64,000 nt of DNA. Source: Hirudinaria manillensis. Lineage: Eukaryota; Annelida; Clitellata; Hirudinida; Hirudinidae. The translations under genes were made by a program, and so were the position numbers. The stretch spans positions 11,606,510 through 11,670,509 of the forward strand of contig CM067526.1 in assembly GCA_034509925.1 (NCBI GenBank). Direction: 5' to 3'. The notes beneath the pieces were generated by a model. It searched no databases. It saw only the letters and a list, made by a program, of their open reading frames with translations, and was not told the origin of the DNA. Of the stretch, positions 6,247-49,457 are shown in pieces (within the stretch, counting starts at the first letter, position 1; every line of letters starts with the position of its first letter).

Positions 6247-7489
6247 TAACAAATTACCAGGAGGCTGTTTATTTTGAGGACCGAAAATATTGATATCCTA
6301 TGTTCTCTTCGCGACTATTTCCTGTGCTTCTAAAAATAAGTTTCTTTGTCTGTTTCTACGGTTACCTACCTATTTATATTATCTATTTATATTATTAAAT
6401 GGATAACTGTATAATTGATTATTATATTTTATGGTCCATTTTAATCTATTTACAATCTCTCAAAAATAAAAATCCAATAAGTAAATAATAAATCAAAATC
6501 AGAGTTATTCTTAATACTATTGCAATTATTATTATTATTATTATTATTATTTATATCATTATCATCATCATCATCATTATATGTGCCACTTGCAATTTGT
6601 GAGTCTCGACAAATTTTGGACCTTTCAATGAGTTTTTAGAAACGAAACCAAACTGCGATGACGTCACATGTTGTTGTGGCATCTTAGGATGTGATGAAGA
6701 TTGTCACAAGTCCCCACAACCCATCCCCCCCCCCCCCCACCCCCACACACACATACACCGCCACTAATACCGCATCAATTAACACGTTGAAGGCAGCAGA
6801 TGGAATCTTCAAAGATCCGCTTGTGCTCGTGTGTCGTTGTGAGTGGATAATCTCATCCAGTTGCGGTTCTTCTGGGAAAATTTTGGAATTCTCGCCGGTC
6901 ACTGATTGGGTGGAAGTTGGGTTGGGGTGGAATTCTAGGAAATCAGTTGGAATTTTATTTTCGTTTTTTTTTTCGAGGAAAATGAATAAATAAATCACGA
7001 GGTTTTGGAAATATTCTTTCGGACATTTCACCTCATTTCCTATAGAAACGAATGCCCTCATTTTAAGGTCTCCGCAAGAGAGTAAAAAATTTAATTCAAT
7101 TTATTCTTTTTTTATCAATTTAATTTTACAAGAAAAGGCGCCATCTTTGCAGTCACGTTCTTAGACATCCATCACTTCACGTGTTCAATTCTTGCCTTTC
7201 ATGTGCCAGCAGTCAGAAGCCATCTTCTTGTTGTTGTCTCGTTCGGCACTCAATCCTTTGAAAATGGCGCTCTGTTGAGTACCTCGTCTCGTCTCTGTTT
7301 GCCTGGGTTTCGATTCCAGTTCAGATGAGAAGACGAGGTGTGAGAACGAATGTCCTGTTGAAATGCACAGCTTTAATCAGCAGATCTCAAGTACGGAACA
7401 TGTCCACGCATTCGTCTCGTCCAACAGTTACTGTTTGCCCTTCTGTTTCTCGGGCGATCACCTTTTCTATCTATCCATCCACCCCCTCC
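2028..7489. other. AT-rich intergenic DNA with simple repeats
   Basis: No gene is supported. Contents: (ATT)n at 3065-3165, (TTGA)n at 3410-3442, a (TTATA)n tract at 5103-5235, (AAT)n with AAC interruptions at 6121-6246, and an uninterrupted run of about 15 C at 6725-6739 followed by CA dinucleotides. Two TGACGTCA palindromes lie at 2148-2155 and 6659-6666. Open frames here are short and compositionally biased. Confidence 0.6.
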
Positions 7490-8445
7490 CATCCATCCAT
7501 CCATCCATCCATCCATCCATCCATCCATCCATCCATCCATCCATCCATCCATCCATCCATCCATCCATCCATCCATCCATCCATCCATCCATCCATCCAT
7601 CCATCCATCCATCCATCCATCCATCCATCCATCCATCCATCCATCCATCCATCCATCCATCCATCCATCCATCCATCCATCCATCCATCCATCCATCCAT
7701 CCATCCATCCATCCATCCATCCATCCATCCATCCATCCATCCATCCATCCATCCATCCATCCATCCATCCATCCATCCATCCATCCATCCATCCATCCAT
7801 CCATCCATCCATCCATCCATCCATCCATCCATCCATCCATCCATCCATCCATCCATCCATCCATCCATCCATCCATCCATCCATCCATCCATCCATCCAT
7901 CCATCCATCCATCCATCCATCCATCCATCCATCCATCCATCCATCCATCCATCCATCCATCCATCCATCCATCCATCCATCCATCCATCCATCCATCCAT
8001 CCATCCATCCATCCATCCATCCATCCATCCATCCATCCATCCATCCATCCATCCATCCATCCATCCATCCATCCATCCATCCATCCATCCATCCATCCAT
8101 CCATCCATCCATCCATCCATCCATCCATCCATCCATCCATCCATCCATCCATCCATCCATCCATCCATCCATCCATCCATCCATCCATCCATCCATCCAT
8201 CCATCCATCCATCCATCCATCCATCCATCCATCCATCCATCCATCCATCCATCCATCCATCCATCCATCCATCCATCCATCCATCCATCCATCCATCCAT
8301 CCATCCATCCATCCATCCATCCATCCATCCATCCATCCATCCATCCATCCATCCATCCATCCATCCATCCATCCATCCATCCATCCATCCATCCATCCAT
8401 CCATCCATCCATCCATCCATCCATCCATCCATCCATCCATCCATC
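7490..8445. repeat. Perfect (CATC)n array, about 955 bp
   Basis: About 239 uninterrupted copies of CATC (ATGG/GATG on the minus strand). All three plus frames read Ile-His-Pro-Ser periodic peptides and the minus frames Trp-Met-Asp-Gly. These long open frames result from a stop-free 4-bp unit and are not genes. The lack of any interruption points to recent expansion, or to an assembly that may not reflect the true length. Confidence 0.97.
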
Positions 8446-8946
8446 AGCAGAGGCATAACTTGATGTGAAGTCTTAAAAGACTTTGCATTCGATTCTGTCA
8501 ACACTAAGATACTTCAACGTTTGCAACATCCACTTGGAACTGAAATAGAATCGTCAACTCAATGTGTGCAATTCATGCTTGTGAACAGAGTTCTTTTTAT
8601 GTTCAGAAAAATGAAAGAAATTGAAATTTTTTAAAAATTGTTTTCTTCAAGAAATATTTGAAATTAAATAGCGTAGGTGCAAACGGGTGCGCACGAATAC
8701 AACGCTATTTTTGCACCATTAATAAATCTTTTATGATTTTATAATTTCATTTTCAAGTATTTTTTATTTGCAAATGAATATTTTAAAATGTAAATTAGGA
8801 ATTCAACGAATTCATGGCGTTTTTGTTCACCTTTGAAATGATTTTAAACTACGAGTGCACACATTTTGATGTAAATTCTTAAAAACGCAGAAAATAATTG
8901 TGAACTTTTTTGCTAACTTTGTTTAAAAAATGTTTTTTATTCAGAT

Positions 8947-31593: not shown

Positions 31594-32718
31594 GTAGGGG
31601 TCAGACATGATGCTAAAGTAGAGAAAAACCGCATGTCATCCCGCGTTCCACGTCGGAATCGAATCATAGTTTTAGAAACTACTCTCGGAAATTTCCAAAA
31701 CTCTTGTGAATCTGGAATTAGCGGCAGAAGAAGAAGAAGTGCAAGTCGAACGAGAAACTTTCTGAAATCCACTTGTCACTTTCCTTTCAGTTTTTCAAAA
31801 GACAAAAAAAGCTAATTTCACTTTCACATCTCCCTGGAAAAGCCAATTTCTTGCCGCTTCCCATTTAAAAAGACCACTTTAATCTCTTGTCGACTGGGAT
31901 GATGTTTTTTGTCCTCTCATAATTATTTCATAATAAAGACAATTATTATTATTATTATTATTAATTCTCAATTTCTGTGTCTATTTATTTTCAGAATTTT
32001 AATATTTGCAATATCTCGCCTAAGCGCACAAATAAGTTTTAAATTAAATTTGAAATTAATAAATTAAATCCCTTCCCATGAAACGTTCGAGATCAGTCTT
32101 TATTAGAAAAGCTCATAATCCCTGATTATCTTGCTTCAGAGACCATGAAACGGATGTGTTGGCAACTCAACTTTTTTTTTGATATGGCGCTATATAAATA
32201 GTCTGAGAAATGGTGTGGCTGGGATTTTAAAACCGTTCGGAGTGGAATGATGACTTTTAAAAAACACATGGCTGATGGTGAATCTTTCTAATTGGCTTCT
32301 CACTCGATAATGGATGTTTATCCCGTCTTAAATCATGAATTCAACGAAAATCATTTCTAATTGAATAACGGATCTGTGTTTATCGTTAGTTGCAATCAAA
32401 TTCAACCGGCCTGGTTACTTCAATCAATCAACCTGGTTACTTCAATCAACCAATCTGGTTACCCCATCAATCAACCTATTGCAAGGAAGGTGTGAATGAA
32501 TGATCAAATGCTAGAGAATAATGCACACAAAAATAGAAAATATTTTCACACCCAGGAAGCCATAACCGTGACGTCACGAGGAATACTCGTTTTTCAATTG
32601 GCTATTAAAAATATCGAATCGCCTCCTTATTCCCCATTGGTGGGTGATTGGGATAAGCGAGTAATGGTTATTGTTGTGCTGGAGTCAAGTGTCACCTCAA
32701 TCATCATAATCTCCGACC

Positions 32719-33560
32719 TGAGTGAGTGAGTGAGTGAGTGAGTGAGTGAGTGAGTGAGTGAGTGAGTGAGTGAGTGAGTGAGTGAGTGAGTGAGTGAGTG
32801 AGTGAGTGAGTGAGTGAGTGAGTGAGTGAGTGAGTGAGTGAGTGAGTGAGTGAGTGAGTGAGTGAGTGAGTGAGTGAGTGAGTGAGTGAGTGAGTGAGTG
32901 AGTGAGTGAGTGAGTGAGTGAGTGAGTGAGTGAGTGAGTGAGTGAGTGAGTGAGTGAGTGAGTGAGTGAGTGAGTGAGTGAGTGAGTGAGTGAGTGAGTG
33001 AGTGAGTGAGTGAGTGAGTGAGTGAGTGAGTGAGTGAGTGAGTGAGTGAGTGAGTGAGTGAGTGAGTGAGTGAGTGAGTGAGTGAGTGAGTGAGTGAGTG
33101 AGTGAGTGAGTGAGTGAGTGAGTGAGTGAGTGAGTGAGTGAGTGAGTGAGTGAGTGAGTGAGTGAGTGAGTGAGTGAGTGAGTGAGTGAGTGAGTGAGTG
33201 AGTGAGTGAGTGAGTGAGTGAGTGAGTGAGTGAGTGAGTGAGTGAGTGAGTGAGTGAGTGAGTGAGTGAGTGAGTGAGTGAGTGAGTGAGTGAGTGAGTG
33301 AGTGAGTGAGTGAGTGAGTGAGTGAGTGAGTGAGTGAGTGAGTGAGTGAGTGAGTGAGTGAGTGAGTGAGTGAGTGAGTGAGTGAGTGAGTGAGTGAGTG
33401 AGTGAGTGAGTGAGTGAGTGAGTGAGTGAGTGAGTGAGTGAGTGAGTGAGTGAGTGAGTGAGTGAGTGAGTGAGTGAGTGAGTGAGTGAGTGAGTGAGTG
33501 AGTGAGTGAGTGAGTGAGTGAGTGAGTGAGTGAGTGAGTGAGTGAGTGAGTGAGTGAGTG
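32719..33560. repeat. Perfect (GAGT)n array, about 842 bp
   Basis: About 210 uninterrupted copies of GAGT/GTGA on the plus strand. This is the same unit as the arrays at 14913-15039 and 21239-21494. The Leu-Thr-His-Ser periodic open frames on the minus strand are a product of the repeat. Confidence 0.97.
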
Positions 33561-36500
33561 ATTGAGCCTGACTTAGGCATAACATAAAATTCGTAATATG
33601 ACCTTTTCTGACCTTCGCGATTGGAGCGCCAAGGATTGACCTCCCTAAATTGAAGGTCGTAATTTTAACATAAAAATACAAAAAAATAACATTTGTGCCG
33701 ATTGTTCGACGTATTTTGAATTTTAAAAAATCATGGAAATATTTCTGAATTGAATATGTTGATCTGGTGCTTCAATCATTCGTGAATAATTCATTAACTC
33801 GTTCCTAAATATCTCATGAATGATGTAGACATACGCAGACATACCTCAGGCATGATTACTACTGCAATTTAATCTTCATCGTCGTCGTCTTCATCTCCAT
33901 TTTTGAGTCAGTTGTTTGACATCCCTTCAAATATTTGATTAAGCAAACGAACCCTCATCTGGAGTTTCTTCCTATTTCCACTTCCTCTGCTTATCGGAAT
34001 GACCATTCATCATCGTCGTCATCGTCCTCATCGTCATCATCGTCGTCATCGTCGTCGCCATCAACGTCATCATCATCATCATTATCAATGACGTTTTCGT
34101 TTCGTTTCGTTAATATCAACCACGACGATATTCGAGAATGATAATTTTATCTCAATTGAGTTTTAAGTCAGTACAAATTAAAATTATTTTACGTTATTAT
34201 ATTATAATATATTATATTTTGAAAATATTAAACCTCTTGAAACTTTCTGATCACTCACTCACCTGATGATATAATTACACAAATTATTATTAATTATATA
34301 AATTATTATTATTTTTATTATTATTATAAAAATTGTTCAAACACTCACTTTACGATAACCTTTCAAAGTCAAGAATTACGAATGGTATAAAATATTATTA
34401 CTTATCAGCATCGATTCATCAAAAATAATTCCTTCTTATAATTTCTTCTTCTTCTTCTTCTTATTATTATTATTGTTATTATTACAGAATTTATTGTTAT
34501 TTTTAATGCTATTGTTATTATTGTTGCGATTACCACTGATAATAATAATAATATAAATATAAAATGGAGAGATTAATTATTTTATTTATAACCTCGACGA
34601 TTAAAAAGAATAGATTTGAAAATAAATATTTTTCTCTCATCCATGCAACCGAGCGTCAGTCATTCGATGGTCAGTGACGTCTCCAGTTGAACTCATCCGA
34701 ATGCGCACGTTTCATCATTTATCGCTCACACGTGGTGGCGCTCGCTGGGTGTCGCCGAAGCGGCCGTCGACGCTGTCGTCGACGTGGTTGGTGTGGTTGA
34801 TGTCGACGTTATTTGTCGTTGACAGTGCAGTCGGTTGAAGTTGGACTCTTGTTGATCTCAGTTGATTCAGTTCTTGTGCTTATTGTCCTCTTGATGGAAT
34901 TTTAAAGATTGAATCATTTCACCCAAACAATTCATATTGTTCTAAAGCATTGGCAGAATAATACGGAGTGTATGTGGAATGCCATCATCATCATCAACTC
35001 GATCATCATCGTCATCGTCACCATCAACGCCATCATCATCATCGTCGTCGTCGTCACCAAAATGTAATCACTATCATCAATGCAAACTCTCTGCTATTGC
35101 CGTCTACATTTGTCTCACATAAGTCCCGAGCATCTTGATAATGATCATCATCTGAGACCGCCGTAACGTACAGCGTTGTGGGCGTATTTCCCGCAGCTGC
35201 GGTCAGCGCATACGTCGATGCTGGCGCTGATGTTGGCGCTGGTTTGAGATGCTCGGTCTTGGCGCTCGCGTGAAACTCGTCGTGGTTATTTAAACATAAT
35301 AATTGAATTCTGCCTCCATTTAAAATTAAAACTTGAAAGATTTCGATTCGAATTTACGTTTCGAGCAGTTGTTTTAAGTAACATTTTGAGAAATTACAGA
35401 AAAATGCAAAGGTTTTAAAAATCATAATGATCGACCAATAGAATTGCAGTATTAATTAAATAATTAATTAGTTGATAATGGAGAGTAATGCACTGACGAC
35501 CGACTGCTGTAATTGCTAATAAGACTAGGCGCAAGAATAAGTCGGCGTAAGAATACACGAGGGTGTGATACGGCTCTTGGTAACAATTTGCATGCAATTA
35601 TTTCTTGCAAGGATTAGAGAAGCCGAACTCTGCATTTCTTCATTTATTTATTTATTTATTTATTTCTTTGTAATTTTATTCAAATCTGTGTTTTTTGCTT
35701 CATAGAGATCCATTCACAGCTCCATAACAAACTCAAAATTGATTAAGTTTTCCATTTTCAAGTTTTCCATCGTTCGCCGTGAAAATTACAAACTGGAACC
35801 AGTCACGAGTTTTGTTTCCAGATTTACTGCTTTAACAGCTACGGCGATAATAGGATGATGACGACGACGATGATGATGATGATGGTAATGATGGTGGTGA
35901 CAACGACGACGACGACGATGATGATAGGATTGTGGTTTGTGATGAATAGCCATTGCATTGGGAGGTGGTCGAAATCTCCATGCGAGGTTTAATGGTAGCA
36001 TGTCCTGCTCGACGATGTTCACGATGATGATGATGATAGTGATGATAATCATGATCCTGATGATGATGGTAGTGATAATCTGCTTGACCATAGAGTAAGG
36101 TAGGAGTAAGTTTCCCTACTTCTGCCAGTATTCGATGCTCTTTTAGTGACTGATTTTGGACGTGAAAGGAAATCAGAAGGTACAAATTCAACTAAATATA
36201 TTTCAACTTGAATCATCATAAGTACTTAAACGTACTTAAATGTACTCAAACGTTGTTAACTCCTCCCACACGATCCATTTTAAAATCTTGACCGTGCCAC
36301 TGATTTATGCATTTATTGTAAATGCATGTCGCACCATTGGTTTCTTGTGACCAGCCATTTGTCTATTTCTTTCTTTCTTTCTTTTCTTCTTTCTGTCTTT
36401 CTTACTTTCTTTATCTCTTTCTGTATTTCTCTCTTTCATTCTTTTGCGACGGAATTACTTGCGCTGGACTGCATAACTCATTTTCTCTTTTGGATCCTCC

Positions 36501-36964: not shown

Positions 36965-39721
36965 TCAGTAGCTCGAATAAATTCTGATTTCCGCCGTCTT
37001 TTCTCCTTTGACGGCCAGAAATACGAAATCATCGATGTTTACGTCCATCCCTGCAGGTGTTACGTCACTTCCGGTTGAACTTCCGCGAAGTTTCAGGTCG
37101 GTCAGCGTCTTGACCTGGATTTGAGTTCGCCTCGAACCTTCATCGAGCGGCATGGTTCCCGCCTTTGGGCCGTGAACGTTCGCCAGGAGAAGAATTCTGG
37201 CATTGCCCGAGTCAGCCACCAAGATCCTATTTTGCCTGTCCACAGAAACGGCGCTAGGGTTCTTGAAAGGTCCGCATAATTCATGTTTCGGATAAATGGC
37301 ACTCCTCGGCTTTCCAGTGGAAACGTCGATGACGTAGATGGCTCCAGTGCCTCCTATGGCGCCGGAGTCCAAAATGACGAGTTTCTGATGAACAATTGTC
37401 ATCGTTATTATTTCTTTTGTCAGCTTAAAGCTTTTTTTAAACCGAATTTAAGTTATAATTTCATAAAAACTTAACAACAATAAAAAATAAATCATTTGTA
37501 ACTGAAACTCACCTCCTTGCCTGTAACGGCGACATCGACGATGTTTTTGAAAGAAACGTTCCTATCGACAGACTCAAACTTCTTCACGAAGACCATGAAA
37601 TTCGAACTGCAATCGAAAATCGAAACCATCCTCGCTTGAGCTACCATGATGTGCGAATCCCTGGTTTTCATTGGCCCGACCGCATTCACTGCCCCTCTGC
37701 TGACATCCAGATTGACCTTACCCTTTTCTGTTCCGTTGTAGTCCACGAGGGATATCCAATCGTCCGTTGCCACGGCCAGCTGTCCGAAACTAACCTGACA
37801 GCAACTTTTGACGCCTTTGACTTTCACCAAAGCCAAACAATCTCCTTTCACGTCAAAGACCTGAACGTTCGCCAGCTTTGGATCTGTTATGACCACTGTT
37901 TCCGGTTGCACTTCTGAATTGGGAAGGGTTTTACGAGCAGATAATTTGACGGTGGTTGGATTTACAAATCCTCCAGGCTGGGTGCTGATTTCCGAGTATT
38001 TTCCAAAACTCCTGATGAGATAAACCGTTTGAAGACTTGGATCGATGTTATGAGAGTTGTCTTCGATTTGTCTGGATGGAAAAAGGATTGTTGTCTTCTT
38101 TTACAAAGAATTTAAGTAGTTTCTAGAAACTTGATAAACTGTAAACTATTTCATATTTCTTTACAATATTTAAGTCAACGTAATATTTCTATAAATAATT
38201 TCTGCCAATATCTGATAATATGAGCTCTAAACAATCAAAAATGAAACTCAGAAATTGTTGATAAGATGCATACCTGGGAGAAAAATACTCATTTACTGGA
38301 GAAGGGTGAAGATTTTCAGCCCTGTTCAATTTAAGTATTTCTTCAGCCATTGGTCCAACTCGGTAGGGTCTTCCTGCTTCAAGTTCTGATGGCATCTTCA
38401 AAGATACAACGGATGCTTTTCCCAAAGTACTCCTGTAATCTGGATTGAAAGGCGCTGGTCTTTCAAATTCTTCATCAACTTCTTCTTCTTCTTCTTCATC
38501 GTCAAAAAACATCGGTGGTTCCTCTTCGGAAACAAAAATCGCTTTGCTTGTTGCTGTCGCAACATTTAATGGTTTCGACATTCCCATGACGTCCACTTGT
38601 TTAATATTCTTCTTTTGACCGTCAGCAAAAGTACTGCTCCTCATGACCTTGTTGCTCTGAAGACTCAAGACAGTGACTGGAAGTCCTTCTCTTTCTTTTG
38701 ATGGATGACTTCCCTTCTCAATTCCACGAGGTCTTTGTTTCGATGGGTTTCCTGGAAAACTAGATAAGGAATGCTTACCTACTTTTGAAAGTTCGGTTGG
38801 CTTTGCAGTAACTTTGGTCGTTGACGTCCGAGACACTGTTGGTGTTAGATTGGACTCCTCACCAATTGGCAAATTCTCAATGCCTCCAGAGTTCAAAACC
38901 GTCGTTTTGAAATCTTCCAACATCTGCAGTAGTTTTACCTCTGCAGAACTGTCGTCGCGTCTTTTCATTTCTTCGGGAACAGGAGAAGAATTCGTCTGTT
39001 TGGAACTTTTTCCATCTCCGACGACGATGACTGTTCTCTTGACATCGTCGGAGCCTAGCAGAGAGGCTGAGTTTGATCTTCTGACTGCTTCGTGATCGAG
39101 GCTTGTAACTGTCGGCTGCTTTTGGTCCAAAGATTTCTTGGATTCGTTATGACAGAACCGACACAGTCTATCTGTTTTCAAGCCTCTTGAATCGGTAACC
39201 GAAACCTGCACAGGGCTCAAATTGCATTTTGTACAAAGATCCTGGTTCAAATATGGCAATGATGTTTCGCCAGAGACATTCAAGTTGAGGTTTGATGAAG
39301 TCAGCTTCGGTGATCCCCTTACCTCCAGATAGGTCACGGATTTCTGAAAGTGAAAAGGAGAAATCACTTGAGGGTCTTGGGGATGTGACTCCGAAGTAAC
39401 GTTTCCAGCATCCTTTCTTGTTCTTTTGTCGCTTTTCGAAAACAATCTGCCAAACAAACTCGGAGTTTTGGTACTTTTGGTAGCGGAGTCCATTCCTTTA
39501 TTACCGACAGCCACCACCGATACTTTTTGAGGGGAAATATGCCCATCTAATCCGTCATTAGGAGGTGAGTTCTTTGTTTTATGTGAACGTTTACAAGTGG
39601 AGCAGGATTTGCTGGTTTCACCGGATGGATGGGCCAACTGCATGCCAAGTCCGAAACAGTAGGGACACTGGTGAGCGACCGTTCTTGTGCCCTGGTTAGA
39701 CTTAACTTTAATTTTCATCAT
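36965..39721 (-). CDS. NHL-type beta-propeller protein with CxxC motifs, 808 aa
   Basis: Three exons on the minus strand: 39721-38274 (ends CCCAG|GTATGC), 38071-37513 (ends GAG|GTGAGT) and 37384-36965 (stop TGA). Phases agree and the total is 2427 nt. The N-terminal part (1-480) has two cysteine-pair clusters, CPYC...CSTC (residues about 19-43) and CTKC...CRFC (about 163-192), each with four Cys as in small zinc-binding folds; neither fits a RING. It then becomes Ser/Lys-rich and disordered, with an acidic run of Glu/Asp near 400. Residues about 490-808 look like a six-bladed propeller. RSFGKYS...GGFVNPTTV and NPSAVSVDRQNRILVADSGN resemble NHL repeats as in TRIM-NHL proteins. No RING, B-box or coiled coil is seen, so it is not a standard TRIM-NHL protein. 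Molecular role unknown; protein or RNA binding by the propeller is an inference. Confidence 0.82.
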
Positions 39722-41449: not shown

Positions 41450-44400
41450 TCATTTCCGTTGAGCTTCGTCGGGACTGGCAGCGGAGAAGGCCAGTTTGAG
41501 AATGTACGGAGCAGGTCCGTCTGGAAAGAGCAAGCAACGTTTTATGACTCCAGAAAATCAAGATCACAGCGGTTTTACTAACGCACGCACGACAAGCACC
41601 CTGTAGCCTGAGGTACAAAAACCAAAGATCACATAAAACACACGGATCATATATAAATAACCCTATGACACAACATTTTGAAGTTTGAAGCAGAATCATT
41701 AGCTATGCTCATGACCTGAGCAAGGCAATACATCTAACAACACATTTTCAAGAGAAAATGAACGACTCAAATCTATATTTGTCTTAAAACAAAGTGGAAA
41801 AACATTTTTTTAAAAACAAATCACTCACTCGGATTGGGAAGTTTTGAATTGTTGATGGCCACAAGAGATTCCGTCGCGGTTTCGGCATCCTGGAACATCA
41901 GGTACCCCCTGGAACTTTTCTCGGCTGTCAATCGATCGAAATTTCCAACAATTATCCTCCTATTTATGGCCCAATTTAAATTCAAATTGATAACTTTACC
42001 AGTAATGACCGTGAGAAGAATACTTATGTTATCAAAAGCAGATTAATGCTAATTTATGCAATATTATTATTACACAAAGACTCTGGCAAAAACAATTTCA
42101 AATCGATGCTAACACTTAGCAGGCAACATGACCACTTTCTGGGGAAGTTCGGCATCGCATTTCTTGAATGGCTTGAAAATAAATACATATAACATTATAA
42201 TCTAAAGTCTTCCTTCTCCTCCTCATCATCATCATCTCCTCCTCCACCACTACCATCATTGTCATCATCACCATCATCATCATCATCATCACCTGCAAGA
42301 GTATATCCTCTGCCACTGACGGTGGAGCATTGTAAAAGTAAACGATCCTCGTCGGGAATTGAACCTGTGCAAACGGGATCGGGTCGGTCAAGGAACAAGA
42401 ACGAAGGAGAGAATGAATACAAAGGAGAGGATGAATGCGATGATGTTGTCAGAAGCCGAGCCATTAAACCAAATGACCCGTGCCAGGGCAACAAAACATC
42501 CAGATCAATTATAATTATAATATATAATTATTAGATATAATTATTAATTATTGTTCCAGAAAGGATATTGTGCTTCTTGAGTGCGTCCGGAGACCCGAAC
42601 CTGTTGTTCTTTGACCCCACAAAGTCCATGAACGAGTTGCTTCCGTCGGGAAGAGAAAATGGCGGGGAGGTGGATTCAGAGACGTACGACTGCTTGGAGT
42701 TGCTAAGGACAACAACAATGATTATGAGATAATAAACAACAAATATGTTAATTTTGTTTATGTGCATAAACATGTTAATGCTGGCTCCTGCTACAAACAA
42801 ATCATCCTTAGACCATCAGAAGTCCATGTTTATTAAACCATCTGTTTAAAGGAATTTCTGATTGGCAATATCAAGAATGCAAGTTCAATATCCGTATCAA
42901 TCCACTATCAATCTGTATCAATCAAACAGCTTGATTTCTAAATAGCTCTATTATGAATCAATATCAATACCAATCAACATAACAACGCATCACTCACTTA
43001 ACTGCCAGCTTCTTCCCGAACACCACAACATCCCTCAGCATCATGAGCACCCTCTCGCAACTGTCCTTCCCTGCCATCTGCACCATGGCTGATCCTTCTT
43101 TTGATTTCAGGAATCTTATCTGGAAGACGTTCATTGGAGGCATTTAATCATCCGAGAGGAGGAATCTAAGCTTTGGTCAAGAGCTTAACTTATAAATATG
43201 ACTTAAATTTAGCTCAAACCAAAGGTAATGCAAATAAAAGAAATCTATTAAGATAGAATTCTAGTTTAAACCGGCAAATAATCAAAACCGACGTTAAAAA
43301 TGAAAGCTCTCGAATATCAATTAAACTTAACGAATAGCTAACGACCGCCTAATCCGATCCTCACCTTGAGCACGTCTCCATAGAGACACAGCAGGTTAAA
43401 CAACTTCTGGCAGTTGAACTTTTCCATGTTGATGCCGTAAACCATGAGCACGCAATTAGGCACCTGAAACTTCAATCCAAACGAAGGTCAGCATTAGCTT
43501 GTTTAAATTATAATATCATTATATTATAATAATAATAATATTATTATTATAATATATATGTTACAACTAAATACTCTTCAATTAAAAGGTCATCTAAGGC
43601 ATTTCATTGACCTTAGAGTTATGTTCAAGACAATAATAGTAATAATAATGATAATAATAATAACAATAACAATAATAATAATAATAAATAAATGATTGGC
43701 AGGATAGAGTAAATTGTATTCCCACAAAAAAGTACAAGATACATTCAAAAGCAAGCCAGCAGCATTCCTGACATTTCCACACATTTGAAACATTTCTGAG
43801 GTTAAAAGTTAAAACTACCTGGTTCTCGGAAGAGTGACCCACGCCATAAGAATCGGAGTAGCTGGAGTCGAAGGTGGGTCTCAGACCCGACGAAGAGGTG
43901 GATGCACCCGACGACCCGAGTGGATTGAACGGACCATAACCTAAGGAGGAGGTGGTAATGATATCATTATCTCAATGGTCAGAACTGTTGCTAATCATTT
44001 ATTAACATATGTGAACATTAACATGTCATTCAACCTGATGCTAGATTGATAAACTCATGTGAAATGACCTTGGGCCACGAAAAATGTGCATACAACTATT
44101 ATTATTATTATAATTATTATTATTATTACAAGCATACAATACATGACCTACAATCAATGATAATTTATCAAATCATCATTCTGAATGGTCACACTCAATT
44201 TAACTATACTTAACTAAGCCACTTTTCCATCATGTCATGGGATTTCCAGAAAATCAAAAGAATTTACTCACCAAAACCCTGTGTGGAACTGCTGGGATCA
44301 GCCAGCAGGGGTCTACTTTTTTGGTAGCTGACAGTGGAATCTGAAGAAACAAAGCATTGAAATGAAACTAATTCCTTGAATAAATAACACCAATCAACCA

Positions 44401-47400
44401 TTGAATCATCTTCTTAAGATCTCTGAAATATGGTTTAAACCATGTACTCTGAAAGCATGCACGCATCATTCCCACATAAACCAGAAGGAAGCCCATATCA
44501 ACAGCGATGATTGCAAAGAACGGACACTTAAGATTCCTCGACAATTCTCGAGCGATAAACCTTCGGACGTTTCATAAGTTGTTTTTGTTGCTGTTGTTGT
44601 TGACGATGTTGTCAAAGGGAGAAATTTTTGTTGTTGTGGTGTAGTCACTAATGCTACATCTTTGCTTTGTCATGAGGAATTAACAAGTTCAATGTGACAT
44701 CTTTATCTCCAAATAATCCCTCTTTCACCCATTGATTGATTGATTGATTGATTGATTGATCCAGATGGAAGCTAGTTGTAAAGGGATTCCTTCTCGGACC
44801 GAGTCTCCGCTCGTTCGAGAGTATTTGTTCCAAACGGTTGTTGTGGTAACAATTCTCGATGCAGCATGAAGAATGCTCCGATTGTTGCCATCCTTTCAGG
44901 AAAGTTTGGAAATCAGAACTCAGTTGATAAGCAACCAGGATTTGTAGAGGTCACGCGACCGATAACTCGGTTTCACGGCACTTCCCGGCATAAAATTGCA
45001 AACCGAGTTTTCGACGGACTAAGAATTTCTTCCGAATATTTCACCTCCCAATCTGGAATTCAAAAAAGGTTTTCATTTTTAAAATCTCCTGAATTTGGTT
45101 TAACATTTAGCAAGCTTTAGGGATGTAAATAATCGTAAATAATTCGTAATAAATTGAATTTTATGGAATGATTTCAAAATCAAGAACACAAGCGTCTTTA
45201 CCATTCTCTGACAATGTCTAGTCGTGTGGTTGCAGTTGTTTTGTTCGTGGGATGTCTTTGTGGTGATATTGTTTGAGCCGTGTTAGTGTAGTGTAGAGGG
45301 TAACCTCGTGTGAACCAGTACGAATCACCATGTACTGTGGTAATGGAATGTGTTTCTGAAAGCTAGAATGATGTAGGTTCTTCTCTTTGTTCCTAATCGT
45401 ACACGTACAATTCTCCCGTAACAACGAAGCACGAAGTTGCCGAAAGTTTGCTCAGAACTTAAGAAAATTTGCTGCGTTGTCTCCTGTTGTTAGATGTTTT
45501 TGATTCTGTTTTTTGAGAGATGGAAATGCTAGGCCACATTTTTGTTGGCTGAAGTGTTTCAATTGTAGGAAATATGGACACATCATCATTAAAGCCATCA
45601 TCATAGTCACCACGATATCCACATCAATGTACAATTTCAATGCATCATGTAAATATTCTAAGTTTAAAACTAACTTGATGTGACTGTGTAATCCCAATTA
45701 TTTGCATCATTTCTTCTAACTGTCAGTTTAGTAGGCTGTGTGTGGAGTGATGGGTCAAGTATTATGTCAGTGTCAACAAAAATTCTAATAGTAATGAAAA
45801 GGTGGACTAGACAGAAAAAAGAACTAGTTACTAGTTAGTTCATTAGTTTCTTATTTTGTTAATTAAAGTCCAAGAATAAATCCAAGCAAGAGGTAGAAGC
45901 TCAAAGCAACAAAAAACATTCTGAGTTTCATCAGCTATTGTGATCCTAGGCATGAAAATATCTATGATAACACAAGATCATCATCATCAACCAAATATCC
46001 ATACACAGCAATTAACAAGTATGGTATACGAACAGAATAATAGAATTAGCAAGCTTTAGCAACTAGCAACTCTCAAAGGCTTGTGACGGAATAAAATCCA
46101 CGGCCATTTTAAATCCTGGGAGTGCACCAGACGACCTACCTTGGCAAACTCTGCTTTGATGGTGCATGAATTGGCATAAATGTCAGCACCGTGGAGACCT
46201 TCCTTGGCCTTCGTGGCATCCTCCACATTCTCGAATGTGAATCCAGAGTTAAGGAGAACATTGTCATCAGTCAGATCATGAGACTTAACTAATGTTAATA
46301 TATAATTGATCTCATATATAGTTTATCATATACTATATATATATATAATAAATAAACTATATTATTATATCATTGTAATTAATATATAATATTAATAAAA
46401 TATATTATTATATATAATATATATAATTGATATAACTTCATTAATCAGACGATAAAAACATCGTGAGCCATATCATATCATTTATCTGTTTTATCAATCA
46501 ATGGGATGGATTGAAAAACTCAAGAAAAGGATATTCTATGAGGACTTGAACACCATTCTTCCTGAAGATGACGATCCTGACCACATCGGCCAGAGGATTG
46601 CATATGGCGTGGATTACCTCCTGCAATTATTCAGTATTATTCAGAATTATTCGGTATTATTCAGAATTATTCAGTTTTATTCAGTATTATTCGGTATTAT
46701 TCGGTATTATTCAGAATTATTCGGTATTATTCAGAATTATTCAATATTATTCAGAATTATTCGGTATTATTCAGAATTATTCAGCTATGCAATTCAACAT
46801 GGGATATTGAAGGGAATCTCGACCAATGTCTGACAGAGTTCATGTTATGGTTTAAAATTGTCTTAATTAATAAATTAATTTACTTACCACTGTTATCGGA
46901 TGTCTGGCATTCATGATGGTGAGAAGTATCACGTTACTGCTTGGGATTTCCATCATATTAGATCTAAATAATGAATAATTTGGGCATGTTTATTGACAAA
47001 ATTGAAAAAATTCTTGAGGCATTTCAAACAATTTCAAATGCAGAATTTTTAAGAAAAACATTCGGTTGAATTCATCAACACCTTTTCAAGAATCGTGCCA
47101 ATTAAACTCAGATATGAATCAAAACTTTTTGTAATAAACAATCAACTAACAAATTAATAAACTAACTACATAACTACAACAAGGAATGTTAAGAAGAAAA
47201 CATCAACGATTATAAAAAATTCTAATTTTTACTTGGCCGATTCTTGCAATCAAATTCAAACAATCCGAGAAGTCTGACTAAAGACCACCAATTAAGCCTC
47301 AAAGAAATGCAAAAGTGGCACAGTGCATTAGACGAGACAAATCCTACATCAGGCTACATTAGTGCTGAGGTATTTGTGGGCTCGCGAGCCACAAAAGCTG

Positions 47401-48026
47401 ATGAATGGAGCTCCTCCAAGAAAACAAACAATGAAGAACAAAAGGACCAACAATAAGAATAAACATCACAACAATGCTCAGTACTGCTAGCAATAGTAAT
47501 AATAAAATTCTCTGGTGTTCTGCCATCTAAAAACATGAGGCCAGAGGTAAGCTTGGTTTATACTCATAACTTTCACTGAAGGGTATACTTAAGCATTCCA
47601 TTAAGAATGCATGGTGACATGGAATGTGAACGAATGAATTGAATTAATGCACATGGCTGGTGCATGCCACCAGTTGTACTAACAGATAAACTGTTATATT
47701 ATATACGTTATATATTTCTTATCACTTGTACTAACGGAGAAACTGTTATATTATATATGTTATATATTTCTTATCAGTAAATGTTTATTACTTGCTGCCT
47801 GCATCCGGTCTTTTGATTTTATCACTTCTCGAGAAATTATAATAGGCTGGCATGCCACCTACGGGGACATCATTGTCCTGGAATATTTGAACAATTTTTA
47901 ATTTTAAACCATTGGTCATTTGCAATTGAAACTGAAATAATTGACATAAATACATACTCTGGTGTGCTTTATAAGTCTAACTGCAGAGTCAATGTTCTGA
48001 AAAAACAAGAACATTCACTAGATTAT

Positions 48027-48077
<51 letters not shown>

Positions 48078-49457
48078 TTAGTTAATAATAATTAACAATA
48101 ATTCTTATTATAGGAAGAGGATTTATAAATAAATGTTCGAATGCTGTTCCAATCACTAACATCTATTACAAAGTATTTTAAGATATTATGATTATGCAGC
48201 AGGAATGGCCAGTCAGACCACAGCACGTCTAATCTAATAATCGTATAATATTTAGAATTAAATTACCTCATATTCAACCAAAGCCATCCTTTTTTGTGGA
48301 AAGTTCATCACGTAGCTGAAAATAGAATGCTCCCAATGTAATCAAAGTACAAATTCTTTAGTAAAATCAATGATGATAAGAAGTAAAGTTATTGGTTAAG
48401 TTATTAAGTTGTAATTGCATGGTAAAATAAAATAATAAGTCAACTAAACAGTTATCCATTTAGTTTGACTTGATTTGAATTTTAATAACAATGTCAGATC
48501 AAAGTATCAATCATGAAGGTTCTAACTTTCCCATGTCAAATAGTGTCAAGTAGACCAAGTTACAGTCATAGTGCCTATAGTTCCACTGTCCATAACATAT
48601 TCAGTACAGGTGATTAATTAACTATTTATGCTCATAAGAATTTTATTCATGCAAGCTGTGAAGCTTTTTTGTAAAATGATTTTTTTGTATTATCTAACTC
48701 ATAAGTTTAAAAGATAAACTTAATAATGTCCCATTTAGTTGTGGGAAATATTAATTGATATGACTTTTAAGGAATTTAATTAATTTAGCATCCCAAAATA
48801 ACAGTTTCATAGTTCACTTTAACAATGTCACTTGAATGAAATTAGACACTTAAAAGAAAAAGTTATCTCTCTGACTCATCAGAAATCAGTAATTAAATCA
48901 TCCTTTACTAAATATACCCAGCAGATAATAGTTCTGTCGATGAGCAAATGATTTGAGATTTGAGCAGTGATTGTCCACAAAAAGTAGATGACTAGTGAAA
49001 CAGGATTCAGTCAAAAGCCCTCACCTGATGGAGCCAAAACCATGAAGAGCCTGGATAAGGTCTGCATCGATTACATGTTCTGAGAGGCCTCTGACGTGAA
49101 CAACGCAACTAGGGGGGACATTCGGCTGCATGAAACGAAGATTGAAAAATGATGTATCTTATGCATGTTTCTACTGATCTACACTATCGCTTTTGCAAAA
49201 ACAAAAATGGGTCCTGATACCACGAATGAAATGTTGGCGTCGACAAAATAACAATCGAAATGAGTGAGCAAAATGGCCGAAAACAAATAGCACAGAGTGT
49301 GAAATGTAGGTTTATAAACCTTCTGGACATTAACGCTTTGGCCCTGGTTATTTTTCATTCTTTTGTTTGAAAAATGACTGGATTCATCATCGAAGCTATA
49401 ATCTGCCATACTATACATGCTACCCAAATTTGCTCGGCGGAAGTTCCCAAAAACCAT
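41450..49457 (-). CDS. HNRNPL: hnRNP L/LL-family RNA-binding protein, four RRMs
   Basis: Splicing regulator of the hnRNP L / Drosophila smooth family. Exons placed on the minus strand: 49457-49320, 49125-49025, 48315-48267, 47996-47958, 47877-47792, 46963-46888, 46620-46535, 46236-46140, 44340-44272, 43940-43819, 43463-43365, 43119-42998, 42702-42569, 42366-42293, 42162-42114, 41924-41829, 41520-41450 (stop TGA). RRM1 starts SCVVHVRGL, RRM2 has HAICNPLADVVRIVIFRKNG, RRM3 has NCVLMVYGINMEKFNC, and RRM4 has FPTRIVYFYNAPPSV and ends NPNGPAPYILKLAFSAA, as in vertebrate hnRNP L. The placed exons total 1508 nt. One exon (length 1 mod 3) between 46140 and 44340, expected to carry the end of the RRM2 linker, was not found. 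Two introns are AT-AC. The N-terminus is short and lacks the Gly-rich run of human hnRNP L. Confidence 0.9.
42367..42568 (-). other. U12-type AT-AC intron (hnRNP L-type gene, before RRM4)
   Basis: This 202-bp intron has the minus-strand donor ATATCCTTT right after CAC A, branch-like TTCCTTGAC (A at 42388, 21 nt from the 3' end) and terminus TTTGCAC. Cutting after AC leaves AG GTT CAA, which restores the frame as KKHKVQFPTR and matches hnRNP L length exactly. A GT or AG border in this interval breaks the frame. Confidence 0.88.
46237..46534 (-). other. U12-type AT-AC intron (hnRNP L-type gene, inside RRM2)
   Basis: This 298-bp intron has donor ATATCCTTTT after ATA GA, branch-like TCTCCTTAAC (A at 46249, 12 nt from the 3' end) and terminus GGATTCAC. 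Joining GA to ATTCGAG gives VQVLIEFENVED, matching the family pattern VQAMVEFDSV in RRM2. Read-through instead gives an early stop. Confidence 0.9.
46622..46790. repeat. Short-unit minisatellite abutting a splice acceptor
   Basis: Units TTATTCAGAA, TTATTCGGTA and TTATTCAGTA alternate for about 165 bp. On the minus strand the tract reads CTGAATAATAC and runs straight into the acceptor TTGCAG at 46621 of the hnRNP L-type exon 46620-46535. The repeat thus replaces the usual polypyrimidine tract and offers many branch-point-like CTGAAT copies. Confidence 0.9.

Follow-up and report, generated by a model that had tools for sequence, protein, structure and literature searches.

Does one hnRNP L-type gene contain two introns of the minor, U12-type class, both with AT-AC ends? 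The question arises on the minus strand of a 64,000-nt stretch of DNA (the whole stretch analysed, called the window here), taken from contig C1 of a 148.4-Mb genome. The original prediction placed two such introns in the gene, numbered 7 and 14 in our model. We found that both are almost certainly genuine U12-type AT-AC introns, and we infer that the minor spliceosome removes them. The genome also contains a paralogous hnRNP L gene, which has an intron of matching class at one of the two sites and a GT-AG intron at the other.

The gene model, derived from the sequence, has 18 exons and 17 introns and encodes 512 amino acids. The protein matched the hnRNP-L/PTB profile TIGR01649 with 381.6 bits (cut-off 287.4) over positions 1–491 of 493. 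The best matches in the PDB were hnRNP L and hnRNP L-like, with PTB far behind; RRM3-4 of the window protein scored 169.9 bits to hnRNP L compared with 54.9 to PTBP2. Both the profile and the closest PDB chains therefore bear out the hnRNP L-type identity originally assigned. Exon 1 with its start codon is the least certain part of the model. GT-AG ends were present at 15 of the 17 introns; the other two, introns 7 and 14, have AT-AC ends. The relevant features are as follows.

41450..49418, minus strand: coding span of the hnRNP L-type gene (18-exon model and TIGR01649)
46535..46620, minus strand: exon 7, first part of RRM2, C-terminal end ...GVQVLI(E) (gene model and paralogue alignment)
46237..46534, minus strand: intron 7, U12-type AT-AC, 298 nt, phase 2, 5' end ATATCCTTTTCT, 3' end ...CTCCTTAACTCTGGATTCAC (gene model and element scoring)
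46248..46256, minus strand: intron 7 branch-site element CTCCTTAAC, 8/9, branch A 12 nt from the 3' end (scoring)
46140..46236, minus strand: exon 8, second part of RRM2, starting FENVEDATKAKEGLHGADIY (gene model and paralogue alignment)
42569..42702, minus strand: exon 14, C-terminal end ...SPDALKKH(K) (gene model and PDB comparison)
42367..42568, minus strand: intron 14, U12-type AT-AC, 202 nt, phase 1, 5' end ATATCCTTTCTG, 3' end ...TTCCTTGACCGACCCGATCCCGTTTGCAC, then AG/GTT (gene model and element scoring)
42387..42395, minus strand: intron 14 branch-site element TTCCTTGAC, 9/9, branch A 21 nt from the 3' end (scoring)
42293..42366, minus strand: exon 15, start of RRM4, (K)VQFPTRIVYFYNAPP... 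(gene model and PDB comparison)

Splice elements were scored in 29 introns, 17 from the window gene and 12 from its paralogue on contig C10. Briefly, 5' ends were compared with the U12 5' splice-site consensus ATATCCTTT, allowing A or G at position 1. The last 45 nt of each intron were scanned for the branch-site consensus TTCCTTRAC. Introns 7 and 14 both match the 5' consensus at 9/9 positions. A 9/9 5' site combined with an 8–9/9 branch site was found in three introns only: window introns 7 and 14, and C10 intron 4. The other 26 scored at most 7/9 on the 5' site and on the branch site alike. When re-read on the minus strand, the donors, AC termini, branch sites and distances (12 and 21 nt) of both introns were as originally described. 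By their sequence elements, introns 7 and 14 thus qualify as U12-type AT-AC introns. The bare 9-mer ATATCCTTT is not significant by count, with three matches in the window against 1.39 expected (12 of 100 shuffles reached three or more). The same applies to TCCTTRAC (three matches, 3.44 expected). The match carries weight because homology fixes the exon ends on which it falls, and because a branch site is properly placed. A third ATATCCTTT (5616, minus strand) and a TCCTTAAC (20702, plus strand) were set aside as chance matches. The GT-AG form of the element, GTATCCTT, does not occur in the window.

The paralogue (G000 C10, locus L038, 3265-8261) has 12 introns. Its protein is 42% identical to the window protein over aligned residues (188/448). 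Eight intron positions, of 17 in the window gene and 12 in C10, are common in alignment column and phase; they correspond to window introns 6, 7, 8, 12, 13, 14, 16 and 17. Near the sites of introns 7 and 14 the alignment is free of gaps. The partner of intron 7 is C10 intron 4, at an equal codon position and phase. This is also a U12-type AT-AC intron, of 95 nt, with the 5' end ATATCCTTTT, the branch site TTCCTTGAC and a CAC end. In the column of intron 14, and with its phase, C10 has a GT-AG intron, GTAATGATCT...TTTTCTCACAG. It matches the U12 5' element at 4/9 positions and the branch element at 6/9 at best. Its acceptor reads CAC, then AG. The C10 gene encodes RRM2-4, with no recognisable RRM1 in the stretch analysed, and its N-terminus is short and rich in G, P, Q and S.

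According to the original prediction, only the AC terminus restores the reading frame at each site, and it does so at the exact family length. We enumerated alternative borders within set limits, keeping only in-frame, stop-free combinations. Counting AT-AC itself, there were 57 such pairs at intron 7 and 31 at intron 14. The claim about the frame is therefore too strong. The claim about length holds at intron 7, where the AT-AC pair alone yields 512 amino acids. At intron 14 it is equalled by one further pair, AT-AG, in which both ends are shifted by 2 nt; this changes a K to N and lacks the U12 5' consensus. The AC terminus is supported at both sites by the frame together with gap-free alignment to the C10 paralogue. 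The borders of intron 14 also align without gaps to PDB hnRNP L chains. Within the enumeration limits, no in-frame, stop-free GT-AG pair had its donor inside intron 7 or intron 14. Such GT-AG pairs do exist with donors in the preceding exon.

For short AT-AC introns we used a strict pattern, ATATCCTTT-N55-85-TTCCTTRAC-N6-14-AC, matched exactly across the whole genome with the backward pattern as control. There were three matches, compared with none for the control. All three fall where conserved proteins join across the interval: in a POLE2-like gene, in a ThiF-family gene and in the C10 hnRNP L gene. AT-AC U12-type introns also appear beyond hnRNP L, in the POLE2-like gene (L040 1501-1605) and the ThiF-family gene (L041 1501-1609, minus strand). 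The POLE2-like identity comes from PDB comparison; a Pfam search with the peptide gave no family. We take the ThiF-family gene to be MOCS3/UBA4-like.

Genes for minor-spliceosome components were sought in the same genome. Above the Rfam cut-offs were three loci for U12 small nuclear RNA (snRNA; 120–125 bits), three for U6atac (90–96 bits, with two further matches below the cut-off) and one for U11 (87 bits). U4atac is represented by a candidate at full model length, the 5' end of which pairs over 6 bp with U6atac; it scores 47 bits, where the cut-off is 53. In 14 prokaryote controls there was no match over the cut-off for U12, U6atac, U11 or U4atac. Two neighbouring exon matches to CCDC84/CENATAC (PF14968) cover profile positions 2–88 of 330, the better one with 33.5 bits (cut-off 25.3). 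CENATAC is described as promoting the splicing of AT-AN minor introns (PMC8280824). As a separate observation, one of the U12 snRNA genes (C5:9989332) has a relative of the hnRNP L/PTB family at a distance of about 9.5 kb (G000 C5:9998945-10000576). This relative is 30% identical to the query; both of its matches fall within a single open frame of 594 amino acids, so that it is apparently intronless there.

Several results weigh against removal of introns 7 and 14 by the minor spliceosome. The branch-to-end distance of intron 14, 21 nt, lies beyond the 11–13 nt optimum given in PMC6717393, and an AG directly follows its terminal AC. When the gap in the genome-wide pattern was lengthened to N86-116, neither the pattern nor its control had a match. 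The length of the duplex formed with U11, U6atac or U12 separates the intron classes poorly. For example, the duplex between GT-AG intron 2 and the 5' end of U11 spans 11 nt (G-U allowed) and that between GT-AG intron 15 and U12 spans 8 nt, compared with 6 nt for introns 7 and 14. Duplex length was therefore treated as a weak discriminator and not counted as proof. Amongst the snRNAs, the U4atac candidate falls below its gathering score. Loose matches below the cut-offs also occur in the prokaryote controls (U12, 3/14; U6atac, 8/14; U11, 3/14; U4atac, 11/14).

Other explanations for introns 7 and 14 were also weighed. AT-AC ends are found in some U2-type introns (PMC2831892, PMC8280824), and the major spliceosome might remove introns 7 and 14 despite their termini. 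We regard this as very improbable. In both introns the ATATCCTTT element is complete and the U12 branch site nearly perfect. Furthermore, every U2-type AT-AC intron in sodium channel genes is reported to have G at position +5 (PMC2831892), where introns 7 and 14 have C. There is similarly little chance that GT-AG or other borders are used, giving a protein that is slightly shorter, longer or altered. The enumeration does provide candidates, since intron 7 has 56 in-frame, stop-free alternatives besides AT-AC and intron 14 has 30, of which the AT-AG pair preserves 512 amino acids. All of these alternatives lack the U12 5' element, and not one at intron 7 yields 512 amino acids. For intron 14, the four options with GT-AG or GC-AG ends would remove 6–17 residues from a stretch that aligns gap-free to PDB hnRNP L chains. 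The splice sites would be unimportant if the window gene were a decaying copy. The window copy is indeed more diverged from hnRNP L in the PDB, with a best RRM3-4 match of 170 bits compared with 218 bits for the C10 copy. However, all 18 exons are open and in frame, all 17 introns have GT-AG or AT-AC ends and the family profile is matched over 491 of its 493 positions. RRM1 appears to be missing from the C10 copy rather than from that in the window. Decay is thus most unlikely. Recognition of introns 7 and 14 as U12-type AT-AC introns remains our preferred interpretation.

The comparison with C10 also bears on the history of the two sites. The site of intron 7 was very probably a U12-type AT-AC intron before the duplication, because its C10 partner, at the same position and phase, is of this type too. 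The site of intron 14 appears to have changed class in one copy. Most simply, a U12-to-U2 conversion would have followed the duplication. Conversion is assumed to run almost solely from minor to major (PMC10639083). In U12DB, 87 clusters of U12-to-U2 conversion are reported, of which eight contain both U12 subtypes; the other 79 comprise 74 GT-AG and five AT-AC clusters (PMC2831892). Class switching of AT-AC introns is described as rare. Whatever the identity of the introns, the reverse history can be asked about in its own right: an ancestral U2-type intron at this site that turned into a U12-type one in the window gene. One conversion in this direction has been reported in flies (PMC2831892). 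Given the direction assumed in PMC10639083, we consider it unlikely here. We also searched viral and genome contig sets by pattern for hnRNP L genes from other organisms; of the 58 and 100 matches, respectively, none was confirmed.

What would follow if either intron were retained? Translation of the retained sequence of intron 7 meets a stop 11 residues further on, after amino acid 190 and inside RRM2. For intron 14 the stop comes 12 residues further on, after amino acid 425 and before RRM4. Retention of intron 7 would remove the rest of RRM2 together with RRM3-4; retention of intron 14 would remove RRM4. Because retention of either intron brings an early stop, the full-length window protein should require two minor-spliceosome events. 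The C10 paralogue protein would need one. In the proposed mechanism, U11/U12 would recognise introns 7 and 14 and U4atac/U6atac would catalyse their removal, with probable help from CENATAC. The other 15 introns, with GT-AG ends, would be removed by the major spliceosome. The original suggestion that expression could depend on the minor spliceosome is consistent with the stops met on retention. A more speculative extension, which we put forward tentatively, is that the paralogues differ in their dependence on the minor spliceosome. In C10, the homologous AT-AC intron would have given rise, in one step or several, to a GT-AG intron of U2 type. The pair might then respond differently to the activity of the minor spliceosome or of CENATAC, coupling the regulation of major-class splicing to minor-class activity.

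How unusual is this arrangement? The original prediction described AT-AC introns as a small minority of U12 introns. This is too strong for human, where they make up some 22–26% of minor introns (PMC6717393, PMC10639083). It also held that two in one splicing-regulator gene is notable. The pair is real. However, 50 human genes are reported to have two minor introns, and three to have three (PMC6717393). U12-type introns were also found to cluster within genes in 21 of 21 genomes tested (PMC7367187). In addition, a U12 intron in human HNRNPLL has already been published. The gene, named HNRPLL in PMC3564746 and HNRNPLL in PMC8329584, is described in the former as having a U12-type twintron, in which the choice between U12 and U2 sites alters an RRM slightly and gives 537 or 536 amino acids. 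We found no description of two U12-type AT-AC introns in one hnRNP L-family gene in the papers searched, which did not cover the databases U12DB, IAOD and MIDB.

The window gene resembles human HNRNPLL in having a U12-type intron within an hnRNP L-family gene, possibly at the same position as intron 7 or 14. It differs in that the human intron, as described, competes with a nested U2-type intron, whereas, within the limits of the enumeration, the window introns had no in-frame, stop-free GT-AG pair with an inside donor. The same distinction separates it from the SRSF10 and prospero switches, where U2-type introns are nested and compete (PMC8329584). These are likewise AT-AC U12-type introns in regulators, and SRSF10 is itself a splicing factor with a link to the activity of the minor spliceosome. 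Like the human genes with two minor introns (PMC6717393, PMC7367187), the window gene has two minor among many major introns; unlike those genes as reported, both are AT-AC and one site is GT-AG in a paralogue. In the U12DB conversion clusters, too, introns of both U12 and U2 type occupy a homologous position in the same phase (PMC2831892). To these, the window and C10 genes, as paralogues within a single genome, add a case of AT-AC paired with GT-AG (U2). The window gene is thus a good further example of a known phenomenon, and the new part is the sharing and splitting of intron classes between paralogues. One homologous intron is AT-AC in both and another differs in class, which provides a testable pair for the persistence of minor introns. 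The sister genes are also a natural comparison of minor-spliceosome dependence.

Further features were seen in the window and elsewhere in the genome. Immediately downstream of the hnRNP L gene, an open reading frame (ORF) of 510 amino acids contains several CxxC pairs (38189-39721, minus strand). The window has two long minisatellites, both open in several frames: one of TCCATCCA type at 7325-8463 (SIHP/WMDG repeats) and one of CTCACTCA type at 32627-33681 (THSL repeats). On contig C12 (G000 C12:3241249-3279975), RRM ORFs form a head-to-tail array with at least 42 matches, mostly of 218 amino acids and mostly spaced by about 870 nt.

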